From a virus, in IMG/VR virus record IMGVR_UViG_3300043446_004451, positions 1-31,279 of that record: a stretch of 31,279 nucleotides of DNA; one strand, given 5' to 3'. Both the position numbers and the translations under genes were made by a program. Under the pieces are notes generated by a model. That model did not search any database. It saw only the letters and a list, made by a program, of their open reading frames with translations, and was not told the origin of the DNA. This document shows positions 5,713 through 28,366 of this stretch, in pieces (positions within the stretch are counted from its first letter, which is position 1; each line of letters begins with the position of its first letter).

Positions 5713-7770
5713 TTACCGAACGCGCTTGTTTTTGGTTTTGGTTTTGAGTTTCAAAGAAGTCGGCGGCGTTTCTGGTTGACTTGGAATTTGTGATTTGAAT
5801 TCATTGGTTTCATAATCCCATTGTCCAAACCGTTTAGCCTCTTCTTCTGGGGTCATGTTGCCTTGCCTCAATACATCTGCCACTGAGGTAAGTGGCGATT
5901 CTGTCTTGGGGACAAACGGATTTTCCTGCGCATACCGGCCTGCGCGCAATGATTCAAACGTGGGAAGGTTTTTCCCAGCAGTTTGTTCAACATGCGCAAT
6001 GTCTGGCAACACTGTGGCAACGGATGTCGGCTGCATCTGCTTTGATTCATTTGCGGCTTGTTGTTCCCCAAACTGCAACTTGTTTTCCTGAGTTTGCACC
6101 GATTCTTCTGCACGTTTACGGTGATAACCAAAGTCAGGATTTGTATCGTAATACCCACCGCCAGGAACAACGTGCCGCATAAGCGGACGAGACGACCTGG
6201 ACATCCAATCAGACATGTGAATTGGGTCAATACCCGAACTTTCCACAAGACGATTGTAACGTTCGCGATCGCCTTGGTCATTCATGTCAAGTGCAACGTC
6301 ATTGCCATTGGCATTGACAAAATATACCCGATTGTTCTTTACATCCTTGACTGGAACAAACTGAAACTTTTCTCCGCGCCGACCTGCTTCTATTGCTGCT
6401 TGCCTGGCCGTTTCGCGCAAATTGACAAGATCGCGGTTGTACGCGTTAACCTCATCTGCAGAATTCATCATGTCGGCATAGTAGTTATAGTTTGGCTGGC
6501 CCATTCCATTTCTTGGAACGTACGGTGTTGCCGTAGGTTGCGGCATTCCTGCTGCACCACCCTGATTTGCTCCACCCATTCCGCCTGCACCGCCAGCACC
6601 AACCTTTGTCTTTACGCCCATAGACGCTGCGGCAAGACGCGGAGTTGCCCCACCTTTACTGGCAACAGCGTTAGCGCCCGCACCTTTGGCATTTGGAGGA
6701 ACCGGCGCGGCTGCTGCGGCTGCGTCAGGTGCTGCCGTGGCTGGCACTGCTGCGGCAGGTGCTGCTGCGGTTGGCACTGCCGCTTGCGCTGGCGCATTAC
6801 CTTGTTCAGCGTCTGATTCTTGTTGCTGCGCGTCTTTGCCGGTCAAAAGTTTGTAAAGTCCATAAAGAGCTGCTGGTGCCGCAAGTGCGCCTAAGCCAAC
6901 TTTTGCCTTGTTTGCTCTGGCCCAATTTGAAAATTTACCAAATGAACTAAGCGCAGCCTGCGGCACACTTCCCGGTGCAATTGGAGAAGCTGGTGCTGAT
7001 ACTGGGATTGCAGGCGGAACGGCTGTCGGTTGAGGCAATGGCGCCCGCCCAGGTGGCGGAGGAGTTGGCGGCTGAACATTTTTAAGAACAGCAGCTCTTG
7101 TTGCATCAATTTCTGCTTGCGAAACAGGCACCCCTGTCCCTGCAATTGTTGGAGTTCTTGTAGGAACTGCAACTCCCGCAGGCACCGTTGGTGCGCTTGT
7201 TGGCAATGCCGGCCCCGGTTCCATAGGAATTGCAGCCGATGGAGCTTTTTGAGTCGGCAAACTAGTTGGAGCAGATACGCCTGTTCCTCTTGCGGTTGGA
7301 GCGCTTGTTGGCAACGAGGGTTGCATGCTTTTTGCCGCAACGCTTTCGGTTGCTGCAGCTTTGGCTGCGGCTGTTTCTGCGGGCGCAGCACGTTCCGCGG
7401 CCTGCAAAACTTTGCTTGCTTTGGAAGCAATCCCGCCAGATGCAGCCGTAGCGGAGCCGCCACCACTACCAGGCATTCCCGCCAACAACGTAACTTCCCA
7501 AGCTGTTTGAGCTAATTGTTTCCAATATTGCTGTTCTGTGTACAAATCGCCGTTGGGCGCTTGATAAAGCGGTTGCCCATCGACACCTTGCACTTGTTTC
7601 CATTTTTGCATTTCGTCAATACGATTCCCAAGATTTTGGGCGTAATTGACTGTGCCAACGGCAAGATCATAGGGGAGTTTGATTCCTTGCCAAAGCATGC
7701 TTGCGGCCCTTGAAGACGAGGCCGGGAATGTTTTTGCTTGAGCAGCAAGAGGTGCATCTTCTCTGTTCAT
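5713..7770 (-). CDS. Large Ala/Pro-rich virion-type protein with one hydrophobic segment
   Basis: A 685-residue protein. It has an N-terminal ordered part (to about 110), then about 190 residues of low-complexity Pro/Ala/Thr repeats (recurrent SAPT and PTSAPT blocks), one hydrophobic segment near 290-312 (GLGALAAPAALYGLYKLL), a second Ala/Pro and Gly-rich stretch (about 320-410), and an ordered, charged C-terminal part ending in a basic tail. The GGGGGAAAG ribosome site fixes ATG 7770. Its layout suggests a flexible internal or ejected protein. Paired with the next gene, it may form part of a DNA-ejection apparatus; this is inference. Confidence 0.7.
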   Translation of the reverse strand: MNREDAPLAAQAKTFPASSSRAASMLWQGIKLPYDLAVGTVNYAQNLGNRIDEMQKWKQVQGVDGQPLYQAPNGDLYTEQQYWKQLAQTAWEVTLLAGMPGSGGGSATAASGGIASKASKVLQAAERAAPAETAAAKAAATESVAAKSMQPSLPTSAPTARGTGVSAPTSLPTQKAPSAAIPMEPGPALPTSAPTVPAGVAVPTRTPTIAGTGVPVSQAEIDATRAAVLKNVQPPTPPPPGRAPLPQPTAVPPAIPVSAPASPIAPGSVPQAALSSFGKFSNWARANKAKVGLGALAAPAALYGLYKLLTGKDAQQQESDAEQGNAPAQAAVPTAAAPAAAVPATAAPDAAAAAAPVPPNAKGAGANAVASKGGATPRLAAASMGVKTKVGAGGAGGMGGANQGGAAGMPQPTATPYVPRNGMGQPNYNYYADMMNSADEVNAYNRDLVNLRETARQAAIEAGRRGEKFQFVPVKDVKNNRVYFVNANGNDVALDMNDQGDRERYNRLVESSGIDPIHMSDWMSRSSRPLMRHVVPGGGYYDTNPDFGYHRKRAEESVQTQENKLQFGEQQAANESKQMQPTSVATVLPDIAHVEQTAGKNLPTFESLRAGRYAQENPFVPKTESPLTSVADVLRQGNMTPEEEAKRFGQWDYETNEFKSQIPSQPETPPTSLKLKTKTKNKRVR

Positions 7771-10840: not shown

Positions 10841-11304
10841 GTTGTAATCTCCGCACGTTACAAACCCCCTATTGTTTTTTTTCTTTAAATATGCTACAGG
10901 GGGGAACCTTAGCGCAGCGCGGAGGGCGGGAGCGTAGTAAGCCCGCAGCGTGTCCGCGCTGGCACATCTAGCACACAACACAAAGACACGCAATCGGGAT
11001 TACGAAGTGACTACCGGACGGGTATAGGGGTCGATCGTTAGAGCGACGGTATGCCCTAATCTCTACACTACAAGTCTATGTCCCTGTATCTACAAGCTAT
11101 CGGCAATATCCTCGCCGGCTGTAGGCATCTACCAATAAGCCTTAATCCCACTACACCTACGCAATCCCAGGCGTCGTGCAAAAAAATTCTCGCGGCAGGT
11201 GCAAATCTGACGGCAGGGGTAATGTGCGAGGTGGTCTCAACGTTTAGACTAACACGCGCCGGGATGACCTGGCCTTATACCCTACCCACCCACCTACCTA
11301 TACC

Positions 11305-11374
11305 CGTGTGCATGCGTGCGTGTGCGCGTGTGTACGCGTGTACGTGTACGCGTGTGCGTGCGTGTGTGCGCGTG
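11305..11374. repeat. 70-bp strictly alternating pyrimidine-purine tract (CG/TG/TA)
   Basis: Every step from 11305 to 11374 alternates pyrimidine and purine, mostly CG and TG with a few TA and CA. Such runs can adopt Z-DNA under negative supercoiling. It lies midway between the divergent operons. Confidence 0.85.
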
Positions 11375-11483
11375 GGGCGTGTGGTGTGCGGGGATGCTGC
11401 GGGGATTCGGGATGGAGGAAGGGCGAGCGGGCGGCGAGCGGGCGGATTGGGCGAGCGGTTCGGGTCGTTCTGGACTTGGCCCC

Positions 11484-11688: not shown

Positions 11689-11748
11689 CGAGGCGCTGAT
11701 GCCTCGCAAGTCACAAGCCGCGCCGCTGATGGCGCACTGAGGTAGACA
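11689..11748 (+). promoter_or_regulatory. 5' leader with two GCTGAT-loop hairpins and conserved ribosome site (leader L1)
   Basis: Two hairpins with different stems carry the same loop, GCTGAT: CGAGGC/GCCTCG (11689-11706) and GCGCC/GGCGC (11720-11735). The second runs into ACTGAGGTAGACAATG, the initiation sequence also found before 12141 and 12491. GAGG is the ribosome site for ATG 11749. Confidence 0.75.
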
Positions 11749-12009
11749 ATGGACTTGCACGACCTTAACGACCATTTGCACTATGTGCGCCTTGACGGTG
11801 TCGCCGACGCTCAGCGTTCTGCGCTTGACTACGAGGCGGCCTTTCGCCCGACTGTCGAAGCGCTTGTAGACGATTACATCGCCTCGCACGAAAACAGCGG
11901 TTTGACCGTGGAGTGGCTGCACTCTAGCGCTGTAACGTGGGCCGTGTCGTACTACTCGACTGCTGCTGCAATTTGGGCGCGTCACGACGCGCAGTCTGAG
12001 GTCGCATAA
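11749..12009 (+). CDS. Small early protein, unknown
   Basis: An 86-residue soluble protein rich in His, Asp, Ala and Tyr. It is the first gene after the early promoter, started by ATG within the conserved leader L1. A helix-rich pattern (VEALVDDYIASHENSG, then a Ser/Thr/Trp stretch) is visible, but no motif. Its stop overlaps the next start (TAATG). First genes of early phage operons often encode host-takeover or antirestriction proteins; nothing in the sequence shows that here. Confidence 0.7.
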   Translation: MDLHDLNDHLHYVRLDGVADAQRSALDYEAAFRPTVEALVDDYIASHENSGLTVEWLHSSAVTWAVSYYSTAAAIWARHDAQSEVA

Positions 12010-12101: not shown

Positions 12102-12107
12102 ACCCCT

Positions 12108-12140
12108 GCCCGCGCGGGCTATCGCGCACTGAGGTAGACA
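12108..12140 (+). promoter_or_regulatory. Hairpin plus conserved initiation leader (L2)
   Basis: GCGCG (12112-12116) pairs with CGCGC (12123-12127) around the 6-base loop GGCTAT; an alternative 12-bp palindrome spans 12108-12119. ACTGAGGTAGACA follows up to ATG 12141. With L3, the last 23 bases including the ATG are identical. Confidence 0.7.
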
Positions 12141-12383
12141 ATGCAGTTCATTCCTAACACGCCGTATTTCCCCGCGACCCTTCGCCGTTCAGACGTCTGG
12201 CGCGTCCTGTGCGCCCGTACCGTCGAGGACGGGCATATCGTGCTGTGCTCGCCGACTGCTGCGCGCCCGTACTGGTCTGTGCACTTTGCTTGTGCGGGCG
12301 ACGACGGGCAAATTGACCTGTACTTCACAGAGCGCTTTACGTCGCAGGCCGAAGCTGCGGCTAGCTACCTGCAACGCGTCTAG
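12141..12383 (+). CDS. Small early protein, unknown
   Basis: An 80-residue protein started by ATG in leader L2. The sequence has an alternating beta-type pattern (VEDGHIVLCSPT, PYWSVHFACAGDDGQIDLYF) and ends in a helix (SQAEAAASYLQRV), a compact alpha/beta layout of a kind seen in small phage accessory proteins. No catalytic signature. A tRNA-like element begins 7 bases after its stop. Confidence 0.7.
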   Translation: MQFIPNTPYFPATLRRSDVWRVLCARTVEDGHIVLCSPTAARPYWSVHFACAGDDGQIDLYFTERFTSQAEAAASYLQRV

Positions 12384-12389
12384 CTACTG

Positions 12390-12437
12390 CACACTGCGCC
12401 TAGGTGGCTTGTGCTGGTTCAATTCCGGCACGCAGTG
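12390..12437 (+). ncRNA. tRNA-like acceptor/T-arm element A
   Basis: CACTGCG (12392-12398) pairs with CGCAGTG (12431-12437), a 7-bp acceptor-like stem. Inside, GCTGG (12413-12417) and CCGGC (12425-12429) close the 7-base loop TTCAATT, the tRNA T-loop consensus. The 14-base connector CCTAGGTGGCTTGT keeps a D-loop-like GG but there is no anticodon arm, so this is not a decoding tRNA. Element B (13841) is homologous with paired changes in the T-stem. It lies in the untranslated gap between two genes. Confidence 0.65.
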
Positions 12438-12439
12438 CC

Positions 12440-12490
12440 CCCGCACTATTGCGGGCAATCCGCGCGGATTATCGCGCACTGAGGTAGACA
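12440..12490 (+). promoter_or_regulatory. Two hairpins and conserved initiation leader (L3)
   Basis: CCCGCA (12440-12445) pairs with TGCGGG (12450-12455). GCGCG (12462-12466) then pairs with CGCGC (12473-12477) around GATTAT, running into ACTGAGGTAGACA and ATG 12491. The upstream palindrome (12458-12469) differs from the one in L2 at symmetric positions, so base pairing is kept. Confidence 0.7.
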
Positions 12491-13228
12491 ATGGCTGAGA
12501 CCTTGTATCGTGGCGCGCCGATAGGCGGCGCATATTCCGGCGGCGACATCCAGGCGCTTGTCGCTGAAGCGACCGGCAATGCCAAAACCGGCGCAGCACT
12601 CACGCTCTGGATTTTGCCGGACACTGCAGACGGCGGTGCCTCGCCCTGGTCGCTGATTAAACAGCACGGTAGCACCTCTACTTGCGGCGATTGTCCACTG
12701 CAGCACGGCGACTGCTACACGCACGCAGGTGCGTCGCAGGTACTCAGCGCCGGCGCTGCCTCTATCGTCAAAGCGCGCGACGCAGGCAAGGTCAAACCCT
12801 CTCGAGCCGTGCGCCGTGCACGTAGTGCAGCTTTCGGCGACGCAGCTGCATTGCCGTTGCATATTCTGCAGGCATGGCGCGATATGCGCGACCACTTTGG
12901 ATTGCAACCTTTAGGCTATACGCATGCTTGGCGCACGCGTCCAGATTTGGCGCAGGATCACATGGCCAGCGTAGAAAGTGTCGAGGATGCGTTGCAGGCA
13001 CGCGCGCAGGGCTGGCGCTACTTTCGCGTGCGTCCGGTCGGTGCGCCGGTACTTGCCGGCGAAATTCAATGCCCGGCAGCAAGCGACCGCGCCAATCCGA
13101 TAGACTGCAATCGCTGCGGCTTGTGCGACGGCAACGCGCGCGGCAGCAATCGCCCTAGCATTACAATCGAAGACCACGGCGCAAGCGCTAAACGTCAATT
13201 GCGCGAGCTGCGTATCGGTCGCCGTTAA
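12491..13228 (+). CDS. Cysteine-rich conserved phage protein (DUF7227-like)
   Basis: A 245-residue protein. Conserved-looking blocks are a Gly/Thr N-terminal region ending in LTLWILPD (about 37-45), a first cysteine cluster CGDCPLQHGDCY (65-76), GYTHAW near 142, MASVESVEDALQARAQGW (about 158-175), and a second cluster ending CNRCGLCDG (about 207-215). I recall phage and plasmid proteins with these blocks, classed as a domain of unknown function; the name DUF7227 is from memory. The eight or so cysteines suggest metal or iron-sulfur binding. The start is fixed by leader L3. Confidence 0.8.
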   Translation: MAETLYRGAPIGGAYSGGDIQALVAEATGNAKTGAALTLWILPDTADGGASPWSLIKQHGSTSTCGDCPLQHGDCYTHAGASQVLSAGAASIVKARDAGKVKPSRAVRRARSAAFGDAAALPLHILQAWRDMRDHFGLQPLGYTHAWRTRPDLAQDHMASVESVEDALQARAQGWRYFRVRPVGAPVLAGEIQCPAASDRANPIDCNRCGLCDGNARGSNRPSITIEDHGASAKRQLRELRIGRR

Positions 13229-13261
13229 CTTTCCGCGCTACACAGTGCACGAGGTGTGATT

Positions 13262-13516
13262 ATGATTAATCCTACAGACGATTTGGTTCTAGCGGCGTTT
13301 ACAGCACAAGCCTGGCATGGTGGGCAAGGCTGCCAGTTGTATGCCCTATCGTGCGGCAATTGGGATGCATTGACCTACGCAGATATTGAATCCGCAGCAC
13401 GAGAGTTTAGCTACCTAGTGCGCCACAATGTGTGTTCTGCAGACGACGACCTAGACATCTACAACGCTTTGGACGCGTGCGAAAACTGGTTGCAGCACAA
13501 TCGCCCGCAGCAATAA
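13262..13516 (+). CDS. Small early protein, unknown
   Basis: An 84-residue acidic protein. ATG 13262 has GAGG 7 bases upstream; an earlier in-frame GTG (13256) has none. The sequence looks helical with conserved-type aromatic residues (AQAWHGGQGCQLYALSCGN, then LDACENWLQHN). The pattern resembles small phage proteins of unknown function that accompany replication modules, but I cannot name a family. Confidence 0.65.
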   Translation: MINPTDDLVLAAFTAQAWHGGQGCQLYALSCGNWDALTYADIESAAREFSYLVRHNVCSADDDLDIYNALDACENWLQHNRPQQ

Positions 13517-13520
13517 ACAA

Positions 13521-13541
13521 CACACTGCGCCACTTGGCGCA
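13521..13541 (+). other. Post-stop hairpin related to the tRNA-like elements
   Basis: CACACTGCGCC (13521-13531), the same 11-mer that opens elements A and B, appears 4 bases after a stop codon. Here it is followed by ACTT and GGCGCA, giving a perfect 6-bp hairpin (13526-13531 with 13536-13541) instead of a T-arm. It may be a shortened copy. Confidence 0.5.
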
Positions 13542-13555
13542 AAGGAATAAACGTT

Positions 13556-13837
13556 ATGGTAATCATGCAAGCGCGTTTTTCATCGCAGTCTGCTACCGGC
13601 TCACGCATCAACGCAGGTGATTCAATCGTCTACGACAAGACAACCCGACAGGCCTGGCTTGTGCGCGACCTTGACCCTGACCTAGACCTCGACACAGCGC
13701 TTGCCGTTGCGCGGCGCATGCTTGCCGATTCTGGCCACACAGTCTCTACGCATATTCGTATTGGCGGCCGTGATTACTATCGCAACCGGCGCGGCAAGTG
13801 CGAGGATGCGCCTTGCTGTGGCTGCTGCACTATCTAG
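13556..13837 (+). CDS. Small early protein with C-terminal cysteine cluster
   Basis: A 93-residue protein. ATG 13556 follows AAGGA at 9 bases; MQARF at 13565 is an alternative start. The core has a beta-type stretch (GDSIVYDKTTRQAWLV), an acidic Asp-Leu repeat (DLDPDLDLDTAL) and a Ser/Gly/Tyr part. The end carries CEDAPCCGCC, four cysteines in ten residues after a basic Arg-rich stretch, suggesting metal binding. Function unknown. Confidence 0.65.
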   Translation: MVIMQARFSSQSATGSRINAGDSIVYDKTTRQAWLVRDLDPDLDLDTALAVARRMLADSGHTVSTHIRIGGRDYYRNRRGKCEDAPCCGCCTI

Positions 13838-13840
13838 CGA

Positions 13841-13889
13841 CACACTGCGCCCTGGTGGGCTTGCATAGGTTCGATTCCTGTGCGCAGTG
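13841..13889 (+). ncRNA. tRNA-like acceptor/T-arm element B
   Basis: CACTGCGC (13843-13850) pairs perfectly with GCGCAGTG (13882-13889). The T-arm is ATAGG (13865-13869), loop TTCGATT, CCTGT (13877-13881). Compared with element A two T-stem pairs changed on both sides (G-C to A-T, T-G to A-T) while the loop, the GGTGG connector and the outer stem are kept. This is what selection on structure would give. No anticodon arm. It begins 3 bases after a stop codon. Confidence 0.65.
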
Positions 13890-13890
13890 C

Positions 13891-13925
13891 CGCGCGATAA
13901 TGCGCGATTCCAAGGTAGGCAAACC
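13891..13925 (+). promoter_or_regulatory. Hairpin leader L4
   Basis: CGCGC (13891-13895) pairs with GCGCG (13902-13906) around GATAAT, another 6-base loop of the G-N-N-N-A-T type, directly after element B. The ribosome site (AAGGTAGG) differs from L1-L3 and lies about 10 bases before ATG 13926. Confidence 0.6.
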
Positions 13926-14213
13926 ATGCAAACACTATTGGGACACTCAGCAGACAAGATGGCGGCAATCAAGGACAAACTCGAGCGCCACACGATTGCG
14001 ATATTTCTCGCAGACCTTGTCGCGCTATTTGACGAGCCACTACCGCCGCACCTACAGGACGACGACGACATCGCGTCGACCGAGGCCGCTGCAAACGAGT
14101 TGCAGTGCGTGGCAGAGGATTTGCTGTGGGCCTGGGATCTGGAATTTCCGCAAGACCAGCGGGCCAGCGATGCGCTGCTCGCTGCGACGCTGCGCTCAAT
14201 GCCCGAGGCCTAA
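13926..14213 (+). CDS. Small acidic helical protein, unknown
   Basis: A 95-residue protein. ATG 13926 (MQTLLGHSADKMAAIKDKLE) is preferred because the ribosome site lies just upstream; an in-frame ATG at 13887 falls inside element B. The chain is acidic and helix-rich with an Asp cluster (LQDDDDIASTEAAANELQ) and a Trp-containing helix (EDLLWAWDLEF). No family recognised. Confidence 0.65.
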   Translation: MQTLLGHSADKMAAIKDKLERHTIAIFLADLVALFDEPLPPHLQDDDDIASTEAAANELQCVAEDLLWAWDLEFPQDQRASDALLAATLRSMPEA

Positions 14214-15919: not shown

Positions 15920-16913
15920 ACCGATTCACGCCGATATCTGGGGACCGCTGACCGGATTGTCCGTTGTTGCGCAAGCTGCATATTTCCGGCTTGCCGCAGG
16001 TCCAGACAGCCGCCCCTTCCCTGTTGTTCCTCTGCGTATCAATGCGCTGGCGGCAGATCTTTGCGTCTCTCCACAAGCATTGCGACCGGCGATTGCCTCG
16101 CTGGTTGAGCGCGGATTGCTGATCACAGATGCCGACACTAACCCGACAGTCGCCTACCTCCCCCTACGCATGCGGCATAGCACTCCCCGAGCACTCGACC
16201 ACCACTCGGCATGGACTTTGGAAGCAAAAGGATACCAGTGGACGCGCTTCTACTCACAACTCATTGAAGATATTGGACCCACACCCCCCACCCGTGGGGG
16301 TAAGGGTCCTGCCACACTGGGGCATAAAACAGAAACAGAAACAGAAACAGAAACAGAAACAGATACAGAAACAGATACAGAAACAGATACAGATATAAAT
16401 ATACAGGCTGCTCCGCAGCCCGTGCCTGTCGTTACCGACACGCACCACATCGACCATCTGTTTCGTCAGGAACAACCAAAGAACAGGCTGGCTGCGAACG
16501 AAGAGACAGCAGCCGCTATCCTAAACAGGAAAGTTACTGACGCTGTTATCGGCGAATGGAATTCGCAGCTAGCTGTGCTTGGTAATCCTGCCGTCAAGGC
16601 AGACAAACAGTTCTATGTGCGCAACGCGCGAAATCTTGCCAAGGTTGCCGCAGCCGCCGGCGGTTTGGACAATCTTGCAATGCTCATGCGGTTTGCGGCG
16701 AACGAATTGCCGTACAACAGCGGCAGACCATACGGCCCCGACGAGAAGGTGCGGGCCTGGACTTTGCCCGAGTGGTGCAGCCGCCAGAACATTGAGAAAG
16801 TCCAAGCCGCATTGAACAGTTGGGTGCTACGCGAGACGGGTCGTCCATCCGTCTGTCAACTGGACTGGAGTGCACGACCCTCACAGCAGACGCTTGTGCG
16901 CGAGGAGGACTAG
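15903..16913 (+). CDS. Replication initiator / helicase-loader-like protein
   Basis: A 336-residue protein. Residues 10-90 form a winged-helix-type domain (a helix pair LAADLCVSPQALRPAIASLV, then wing GLLITDADTNPTVAYLPLR). Residues 143-164 are a Thr-Glu/Thr-Asp repeat linker, and 190-310 are a helical domain like DnaD/primosomal C-domains. ATG 15903 has GGAG upstream and is preferred over 15861. The helicase gene starts right after its stop. The pairing matches phage O/P-type modules: this protein would bind the origin and load the helicase. The exact family is not certain. Confidence 0.7.
   Translation: MPPPYRPIHADIWGPLTGLSVVAQAAYFRLAAGPDSRPFPVVPLRINALAADLCVSPQALRPAIASLVERGLLITDADTNPTVAYLPLRMRHSTPRALDHHSAWTLEAKGYQWTRFYSQLIEDIGPTPPTRGGKGPATLGHKTETETETETETDTETDTETDTDINIQAAPQPVPVVTDTHHIDHLFRQEQPKNRLAANEETAAAILNRKVTDAVIGEWNSQLAVLGNPAVKADKQFYVRNARNLAKVAAAAGGLDNLAMLMRFAANELPYNSGRPYGPDEKVRAWTLPEWCSRQNIEKVQAALNSWVLRETGRPSVCQLDWSARPSQQTLVREED
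16275..16309. repeat. Nested inverted repeat beside the hexamer array
   Basis: CCCCCAC (16285-16291) pairs with GTGGGGG (16294-16300), inside an outer pair GGACCC (16275-16280) and GGGTCC (16304-16309). It lies inside the initiator gene, 20 bp before the hexamer repeats. Confidence 0.7.
16329..16394. repeat. Eleven tandem hexamers (ACAGAA/ACAGAT)
   Basis: Five ACAGAA units are followed by T, A, T, A, T, T variants at the sixth base. Being in frame they encode the Thr-Glu/Thr-Asp linker. An A/T-only stretch (ATAAATATA) follows directly. Possible iterons of a replication origin, or a simple repeat of variable length. Confidence 0.85.
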
Positions 16914-20190: not shown

Positions 20191-20589
20191 ATGAACCCCG
20201 CAACCCGACACACTCTGGATCTGCGTATCGTAGGCCGCCTGTTTGAATTCAAGACGCCCGATCGCGGCCCTGAGATTCTTACGCTGCAGGTCAATCATGG
20301 CAAGGACAAGAACGGCAACTTTAAACCCTCGACTTTTATTGACATCAAGGTGTTTCCCAGCAAGCGCGATCAGGTGCTGCGCATCAATCCAGACAAAGGC
20401 GATATTCTGGAGGTAATTGCCTGGGGTTCGACCGATGAGTGGGTGAACAAGGAAGGCGTCAAGCAGCGCAAGATTTCATGGGCAATGAGCGATGCCAAGT
20501 TGGTTGAGCGCAAGGCAAAGCGCGATGCGCAATTGGCAGCGCGTCACGATCCCGAACCGTTGATGGAAATTGACGACATCCCGTTTTAA
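20191..20589 (+). CDS. ssb: Single-stranded DNA-binding protein
   Basis: A 132-residue OB-fold protein. Strand-rich N-terminal 100 residues (LDLRIVGRLFEFKT, STFIDIKVF, LEVIAWGSTDEWVN) and the SSB-type acidic tail ending EIDDIPF, which in bacterial SSBs docks partner proteins. GGAGA precedes ATG 20191. It lies 8 bases after the Erf-like gene and serves replication and recombination. It is slightly short for bacterial SSB but normal for phage versions. Confidence 0.85.
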   Translation: MNPATRHTLDLRIVGRLFEFKTPDRGPEILTLQVNHGKDKNGNFKPSTFIDIKVFPSKRDQVLRINPDKGDILEVIAWGSTDEWVNKEGVKQRKISWAMSDAKLVERKAKRDAQLAARHDPEPLMEIDDIPF

Positions 20590-20664: not shown

Positions 20665-20726
20665 CGGCAGGTGGAGCAACAGGTTTGGGGACCGATGTTG
20701 CGCGGGTTCGACTCCCGCACTGCCGG
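20665..20726 (+). ncRNA. tRNA-like element C (61 nt)
   Basis: CGGCAG (20665-20670) pairs with CTGCCG (20720-20725). A perfect T-arm follows tRNA rules: GCGGG (20702-20706), loop TTCGACT, CCCGC (20714-20718). Between them, GCAACA (20676-20681) pairs with TGTTGC (20696-20701), extended by GGT/ACC across a bulge. The 5' part GGTGGAGCA resembles a tRNA D-arm, but the total is about 15 bases short of a tRNA and no normal anticodon arm can be drawn. It ends about 5 bases before a strong ribosome site. Confidence 0.6.
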
Positions 20727-27912: not shown

Positions 27913-28366
27913 CGGTAGCCTCCACAGGCACACAGAAAATCAAACCATTGGTTCGTTTGTCGGAAGGTCCGTCAAACAACACACTTTGCCGGTGCAGACG
28001 AATTCCATTTTGAGAAGATGAACAGTCGATCGCAAGCTTCTTCTCAGGGTCAACCACAAATCCGACATGTCCGGCGTGACGTTTGGTTGCACCTGCGGGC
28101 GTCTTCTCCCACCGGCTACCGTAAACAGCAATGCAGCCGGGAACGGGTGCAGCAATCTGACGAAACCGGCTCTTGCGACCGACGGCATCCGCACGGATCC
28201 AGTCCGTATTGCGGTCTTTCTTTTTCTCACCTAGAACGGTCCACGCAAAAGCACTGCAATCAAGCTTGCCGTCTTTGCGAATATCTTCTCCACCCATCTG
28301 ATAGGTGATATCCCTGCGGTTGCGTGCCCAGGCTTGGGCGCCTTCAAGGATTTCTGCAAGATTCAT
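27896..28366 (-). CDS. NlpC/P60-like endolysin (cysteine peptidase)
   Basis: A 156-residue protein with the NlpC/P60/CHAP-type triad pattern: LDCSAFAW with Cys37, then PVPGCIAVYG, and HAGHVGFVVD with His100; DCSSSQNGI follows. Such enzymes cut peptide bonds in peptidoglycan. It lacks a separate wall-binding domain, normal for phages of Gram-negative hosts. Start overlaps the stop of the TM protein (ATGA) and its own end overlaps the holin-like gene. Confidence 0.85.
   Translation of the reverse strand: MNLAEILEGAQAWARNRRDITYQMGGEDIRKDGKLDCSAFAWTVLGEKKKDRNTDWIRADAVGRKSRFRQIAAPVPGCIAVYGSRWEKTPAGATKRHAGHVGFVVDPEKKLAIDCSSSQNGIRLHRQSVLFDGPSDKRTNGLIFCVPVEATDAPIA

Follow-up and report, generated by a model that had tools for sequence, protein, structure and literature searches.

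The elements described here form a large RNA family found across unrelated phages and under selection for structure. Each resembles a tRNA without its anticodon arm. We hold, with slightly more conviction than doubt, that these elements punctuate phage mRNA in cis by mimicking tRNA, most likely through a predicted RNase P cut at their 5′ edge.

The window analysed is an IMG/VR virus record of 31,279 bases, whose genes include those for a portal, a terminase, a DnaB-type helicase and a RecE-like protein. A BLAST search of GenBank phages detected nothing related to the window. A sequence-only reading had proposed two mini-tRNA-like elements between genes, and both were recovered where it had placed them, on the coding strand of an operon (e1 and e2). 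The features are as follows.

12381–12383, + strand: stop codon TAG of the ORF at 12141–12383, 8 nt before e1
12392–12437, + strand: e1, anticodon-less tRNA mimic (fold, scan and model R1, 47.7 bits)
12392–12397 with 12432–12437: acceptor of e1
12398–12408: D-like hairpin of e1
12411–12431: T-arm of e1
12440–12455, + strand: second hairpin, 6 bp with a 4-nt loop, two bases 3′ of e1
12491–13228, + strand: ORF 3′ of e1, 245 aa, PHROG 2554, function unknown
13835–13837, + strand: stop codon TAG of the ORF at 13556–13837, 5 nt before e2
13843–13889, + strand: e2, anticodon-less tRNA mimic (fold, scan and model R1, 71.2 bits; e2 is itself among the sequences used to build R1)
13843–13848 with 13884–13889: acceptor of e2
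13849–13860: D-like hairpin of e2
13863–13883: T-arm of e2
13891–13906, + strand: second hairpin, 5 bp, one base 3′ of e2
13926–14213, + strand: ORF 3′ of e2, no family match
20665–20725, + strand: weak third candidate (R1, 20.7 bits), 75 nt past a stop at 20589

The two elements folded as described, with energies of -22.9 kcal/mol for e1 (z -3.6) and -25.1 kcal/mol for e2 (z -4.1), and no shuffled sequence was equally stable. An acceptor-like stem was present in both, its length being 6-7 bp in e1 and 6-8 bp in e2 (7-8 bp in the sequence-only reading). The T-stem is 7 bp in each element and carries the expected canonical loop, TTCAATT in e1 and TTCGATT in e2. Comparison of the 5-bp T-stem between the elements confirmed that two pairs had changed on both sides (G-C/A-U and U-G/A-U), while one pair had changed on one side. 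The GGTGG connector, previously taken for an unpaired linker, is actually a small hairpin (GCC-UAGGU-GGC in e1; GCCC-UGGU-GGGC in e2); it is a mimic of the D-arm, and its GG matches G18-G19 of tRNA. CC lies directly 3′ of the 12 bp in both elements, and the measured gaps of 8 nt (e1) and 5 nt (e2) agree with the proposed start 3-8 bases past a stop codon.

A model-free scan of both strands of the window, with a TTCRA loop, 11-14 bp in total and GG in the linker as criteria, returned e1 and e2 only, compared to 0.0 in shuffled sequence. The candidate at 20665–20725 contains a 6-bp acceptor (CGGCAG/CTGCCG) and a T-arm (GCGGG-TTCGACT-CCCGC) together with an odd extra middle hairpin, and is followed by GCT. 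Because its fold is no better than shuffles (z -0.9), this candidate is unproven.

Several other features of the window were recorded. Past another stop, positions 13519–13545 form the hairpin UGCGCC-ACUU-GGCGCA, which is without a T-arm and bears at its 5′ side the sequence CACACTGCGCC common to e1 and e2; it may represent such an element in reduced or decayed form. The start-side repeat GCGCACTGAGGTAGACAATG precedes three ORFs (11714–11752, 12106–12144 and 12456–12494), with small hairpins lying 5′ of the ribosome-binding site. An alternating purine-pyrimidine run at 11301–11378 (TGCGTGCGTGTG...) might promote Z-DNA or a long stem, and ACAGAA/ACAGAT is repeated in tandem at 16317–16412.

IMG/VR was searched with a pattern, CCCTGGTGGG N5-12 GGTTCRANTCC (type 1), in which no bases other than those of the linker and T-loop were specified. 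This pattern matched 24 contigs; most matches fold into this three-way element from stems of unrelated sequence, and they mostly sit directly past stop codons. A second linker type, GATGGTCG, was found in at least 120 contigs, and the element formed in 87 of 125 among the matches listed. Other, loose patterns mixed family members with true tRNA genes and chance matches, and tRNA-Leu variable-arm matches from the type 2 search were excluded. Since acceptor bases are absent from both patterns, upstream strands were permuted among matches as a test of pairing. An acceptor stem of at least 5 bp was present in 17 of 19 type 1 matches, compared to 4.9 after permutation (maximum 11), and in 88 of 114 type 2 matches among those listed, compared to 18.3 (maximum 28).

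Covariation was then scored in two alignments. In alignment A2 (10 type 1 members, including e2), both partners have changed at 12 of 17 pairs, with a covariation score of 0.618 against 0.181 for shuffled sequence. Alignment A4 (42 diverse type 2 members) comprises 12 bp with 98.6% of cells paired; 11 of the 12 pairs change on both sides, and the score was 1.005 against 0.188 when shuffled. A4 admitted only members with 11 or more paired positions, and A2 omits one of nine distinct spacing-8 matches (L238, weak fold); both alignments thus rest on filtered members, and the fair comparison is the unconditional permutation test. The sequence-only reading had named structural conservation in relatives as its own test, and that conservation is very strong. 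It had the structure right, offered a plausible mechanism, and missed both the D-like hairpin and the scale of the family.

The total length of the helix is nearly constant. Among 117 distinct members, the combined acceptor and T helix measures 12 bp in 65 and 13 bp in 40, despite a split between the two stems that varies from 5+7 to 9+4; a 13th pair occurs at chance in A4 (16/42). The T-loop TTCRA, G53-C61 and A58 are present in the family, and UGGU is the commonest linker core (146/273 in a broad scan). Counted from the 12-bp end, base 74 is C in 101/117 members (86%), and it is kept in the window, its relatives and mycobacteriophages. A purine occupies base 73 in 82/117 (70%), and pair 1-72 is G-C in 68/117.

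These features coincide with known determinants of bacterial RNase P. Two papers (PMC11143913, PMC10731613) describe an enzyme that binds the T-loop and measures 12 bp from it, pairs with R73C74C75 of its substrate, is sensitive at G19, G53 and A58, and cleaves model substrates consisting of an acceptor and T-stem-loop. The link to RNase P proposed from the window's sequence is strengthened by the family, in which the 12-bp helix, TTCRA, G53-C61, A58, UGGU and C74 are all found. The match to the enzyme's preferences is graded: ruler and C74 agree, a purine at 73 is found in 70%, and C75, present in e1, e2 and the relatives' elements, is not conserved across the family. Counted against recognition by RNase P were the lack of conservation at C75 (13/117) and A76, a position -1 that is mostly A as opposed to the preferred U, the absence of C74 from phage contig G016, and the A4 split, whose 5-bp acceptor and 7-bp T-stem are not those of tRNA.

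Position relative to stop codons was also regular. Among 56 elements at eleven loci, 51 sit no more than 22 nt past an ORF stop (median 8), and in a broader set (ORFs of at least 50 codons) a stop was located within 15 nt upstream in 51% of cases, compared to 5.6% of random positions. Contig G016 contains ten or so model matches, nearly all directly past ORF stops.

Cultured phages displayed the same arrangement, and none of their elements is annotated. Mycobacterium phage Indlulamithi (NC_048824) carries 12, which are confined to the + strand of the interval 35,034–42,373 within a genome of 71.5 kb; 11 occupy annotated gaps 5-13 nt past an annotated stop, the one exception lying at 135 nt. 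In Papyrus (NC_022053), 16 kb were examined and yielded 13, every one on the coding strand. These fill 12 of 15 gaps of at least 60 nt and mostly begin 8-9 nt past the stop; one that lies 134 nt from the annotated stop is 12 nt past the stop of an unannotated ORF. Ten elements were found in Fowlmouth and three in Gordonia phage Trine (L469). Patience, another M. smegmatis phage, has no element in the 28 kb examined, indicating that the element is optional; this was also weighed against the best explanation. Two annotated starts, those of Indlulamithi gp53 and Trine gp40, overlap elements and probably lie further upstream than the true ones. GGCNN pentanucleotide repeat arrays lie beside mimics in Trine (31979–32249) and at loci L433, L416, L458 and L463.

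Homologues of the 245-aa gene 3′ of e1 were found in three IMG/VR contigs (L003-L005). Each has an element just past this gene (6762–6808 in all three) and a further one along the operon (7544 in L003, 7553 in L004, 8430 in L005); their stems differ in sequence yet still pair, and CC follows the 12 bp as in e1 and e2. At the site of e1, these contigs contain no mimic and instead have a long two-part hairpin just past the stop codon.

L003, 5903–5958: outer stem of 11 bp, 2x2 internal loop, 13-bp inner stem (-48.5 kcal/mol, z -7.8)
L004, 5902–5958: outer stem of 5+5 bp, 2x2 internal loop, 13-bp inner stem (-42.9 kcal/mol, z -7.6)
L005, 5903–5958: two-part hairpin as in L003
L005, 5518–5568: extra two-part copy past the preceding gene, 10 bp, single-base bulge and 13 bp (-44.4 kcal/mol)

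The stems of these hairpins have changed between relatives with pairing kept. We take them to resemble an RNase III processing stem, making them candidate RNase III-type sites. A different processing-type structure would then occupy the same junction in relatives, which fits a processing role for the element.

The family extends beyond phages. Matches to R1 at E <= 0.001 were obtained in 31 of 247 Streptomyces genomes, mostly one conserved element near DUF6284 or DUF2637 genes, which we read as mobile-element genes. At loci L316-L336 a highly conserved element, GCCCCGATGGTCGNAGGCCGGGTTCGACTCCCGGCCGGGGC, recurs over many Streptomyces species. One element each was found on a Gordonia plasmid and a Parabacteroides plasmid, the latter 5′ of an ERF recombinase gene. 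On another plasmid (NZ_CP118918; L474), a sequence at 28238–28273 that matches the Streptomyces element overlaps erm(55) on the opposite strand and is probably due to chance, as the scanner confirms no element there. Under strict filters, R2 matched 4/249 and 0/249 in samples of two other bacterial phyla, a result that counts against our best explanation.

Known RNA classes did not account for the elements. The family shares with tRNA a 12-bp acceptor and T stack with TTCRA and G53-C61; the name mini-tRNA suits the shape and fails as an identity, for there is no anticodon arm. ARAGORN called no tRNA in the window; at nine other loci (L477, L465, L298, L300, L299, L469 and L003-L005) it returned one genuine tRNA-Gln and, over a Trine element, one tRNA call that is ill-defined, and it miscalled a tRNA-Arg over the second L059 element. 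Rfam 15 gave no match at gathering score in the window, and at five member-rich loci it recognised a true tRNA-Gln only and none of the elements. A Plastid-ycf2 hit at e1, on the other strand and below cut-off, was dismissed as chance. The elements are not tmRNA, given that pair 3-70 is mainly C-G or G-C rather than G3-U70 and that the 3′ C75 and A76 vary; a non-systematic look saw no tag reading frame. Intrinsic termination was rejected for e1 and e2, neither of which has a terminator-like site (hairpin and U-run), and mimicry for aminoacylation was rejected because the acceptor holds no conserved identity pair (A4).

Taken together, these features suggest a model in which a cis-acting mimic of tRNA is reduced to the handles used by tRNA-end enzymes: a coaxial acceptor and T helix of 12 bp (11-13), a canonical T-loop and a short linker whose UGGU D-loop mimic probably docks on the T-loop. 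Such elements would punctuate long messages of phages, and of some plasmids and integrated elements, by folding just past a stop codon. At the median 8-nt gap, the mimic would start roughly at the front edge of a ribosome that is terminating, such that termination and folding need not collide. Host RNase P would bind the T-loop, measure 12 bp and cut before base 1, a few bases past the stop. This would free an upstream message with almost no 3′ tail, while the downstream message would begin with the mimic and second hairpin, a stable 5′ structure that could plausibly shield it from decay. The structure, its covariation, the ruler length, the placement past stops and the breadth of the family are demonstrated here, while cleavage by RNase P, its position and the effect on mRNA stability are what we infer. 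A bolder generalization, about which we are slightly more doubtful than persuaded, is that anticodon-less mimics past consecutive stops constitute a widespread new class of phage RNA through which host RNase P is predicted to cut the message gene by gene, with a range that takes in Actinomycetota phages and mobile elements, at least one plasmid of Bacteroidota and many phages for which no host is known.

tRNase Z or a phage protein could also act on this structure, and rival explanations were weighed. It is unlikely, to our minds, that the mimic and hairpin act uncut, as a roadblock or stabilizer that protects ends, separates translation or stops 3′ exonucleases. Stable folds and tight stop spacing favour this explanation, as does the frequency of a second hairpin downstream (at least 6 bp in 91/273, compared to 26 when shuffled), but a plain hairpin would suffice for such a task, leaving the invariant T-loop, UGGU, the 12-bp total and C74 unexplained. 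Processing at the 3′ side by tRNase Z, alone or together with RNase P, would yield a small stable RNA along with two messages, in the manner of mitochondrial punctuation. tRNase Z likewise recognises an acceptor with a T-arm, and CCA is not encoded in the elements; conservation of C74 would be unexpected if the only cut were 3′ of base 73, and we judge this route improbable. Fainter still is the prospect that the mimics act in trans as decoys, occupying proteins that handle or attack tRNA (RNase P, the CCA enzyme, acceptor-end toxins): the 10-13 copies in some phages would suit a decoy, while one copy per successive gene at fixed spacing argues for a role in cis and the acceptors offer no conserved aminoacylation identity pair. 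Descent from phage tRNA genes that have decayed, or from pieces of tRNA left at attachment sites, suggested by the tRNA-like T-loop and acceptor and by the single element in integrated-element-like Streptomyces regions, is very improbable and is refuted for the family as a whole, because stems covary and differ between copies within one genome, and because covariation, the fixed 12-bp total, strand and stop spacing all require selection.

A structured RNA family with several copies per genome has been left unannotated in cultured, sequenced phages. If RNase P cuts at these elements, they would represent a phage form of tRNA punctuation without tRNAs, in which the signal is reduced to the enzyme's ruler. 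Punctuation of this kind would account for the separation and stabilization of individual genes in long early operons, and would provide a natural test of RNase P substrate requirements. The laboratory strain M. smegmatis mc2 155 is a host for Papyrus, Fowlmouth and Indlulamithi, which puts a direct test within reach.

The closest counterparts are the model substrates of RNase P (AT1 and acceptor with T-stem-loop minihelices), which (PMC11143913) likewise comprise a 12-bp acceptor and T stem, a T-loop and a 3′ R-C. Those minihelices are synthetic, whereas the elements are natural, lie in mRNA, add a UGGU D-loop mimic and usually retain only C74 of CCA. Natural non-tRNA substrates of the enzyme in phages and operons (phi80 M3 RNA, phage C4 RNA, his operon mRNA and intergenic RNAs) appear in partial descriptions as isolated cases, with no covarying stop-codon family among them; it is on these descriptions that we set them apart. 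Our search of the open-access PMC literature found no described family of this kind. Functional tRNAs between mitochondrial genes mark cutting sites, and the elements are likewise tRNA-shaped marks between genes, though without an anticodon arm or a decoding role. An acceptor, a stemless D-loop and a T-arm are held in common with the tRNA-like domain of tmRNA, from which the elements differ in having many copies and neither the alanine G3-U70 nor an encoded CCA. RNase III sites of T7-like phages are also structured processing marks between genes; they consist of a long hairpin, unlike the elements, and it is such a hairpin that replaces e1 in the three relatives. Mimicry of tRNA as such is known, and it is as an RNA family that these elements appear to be new.
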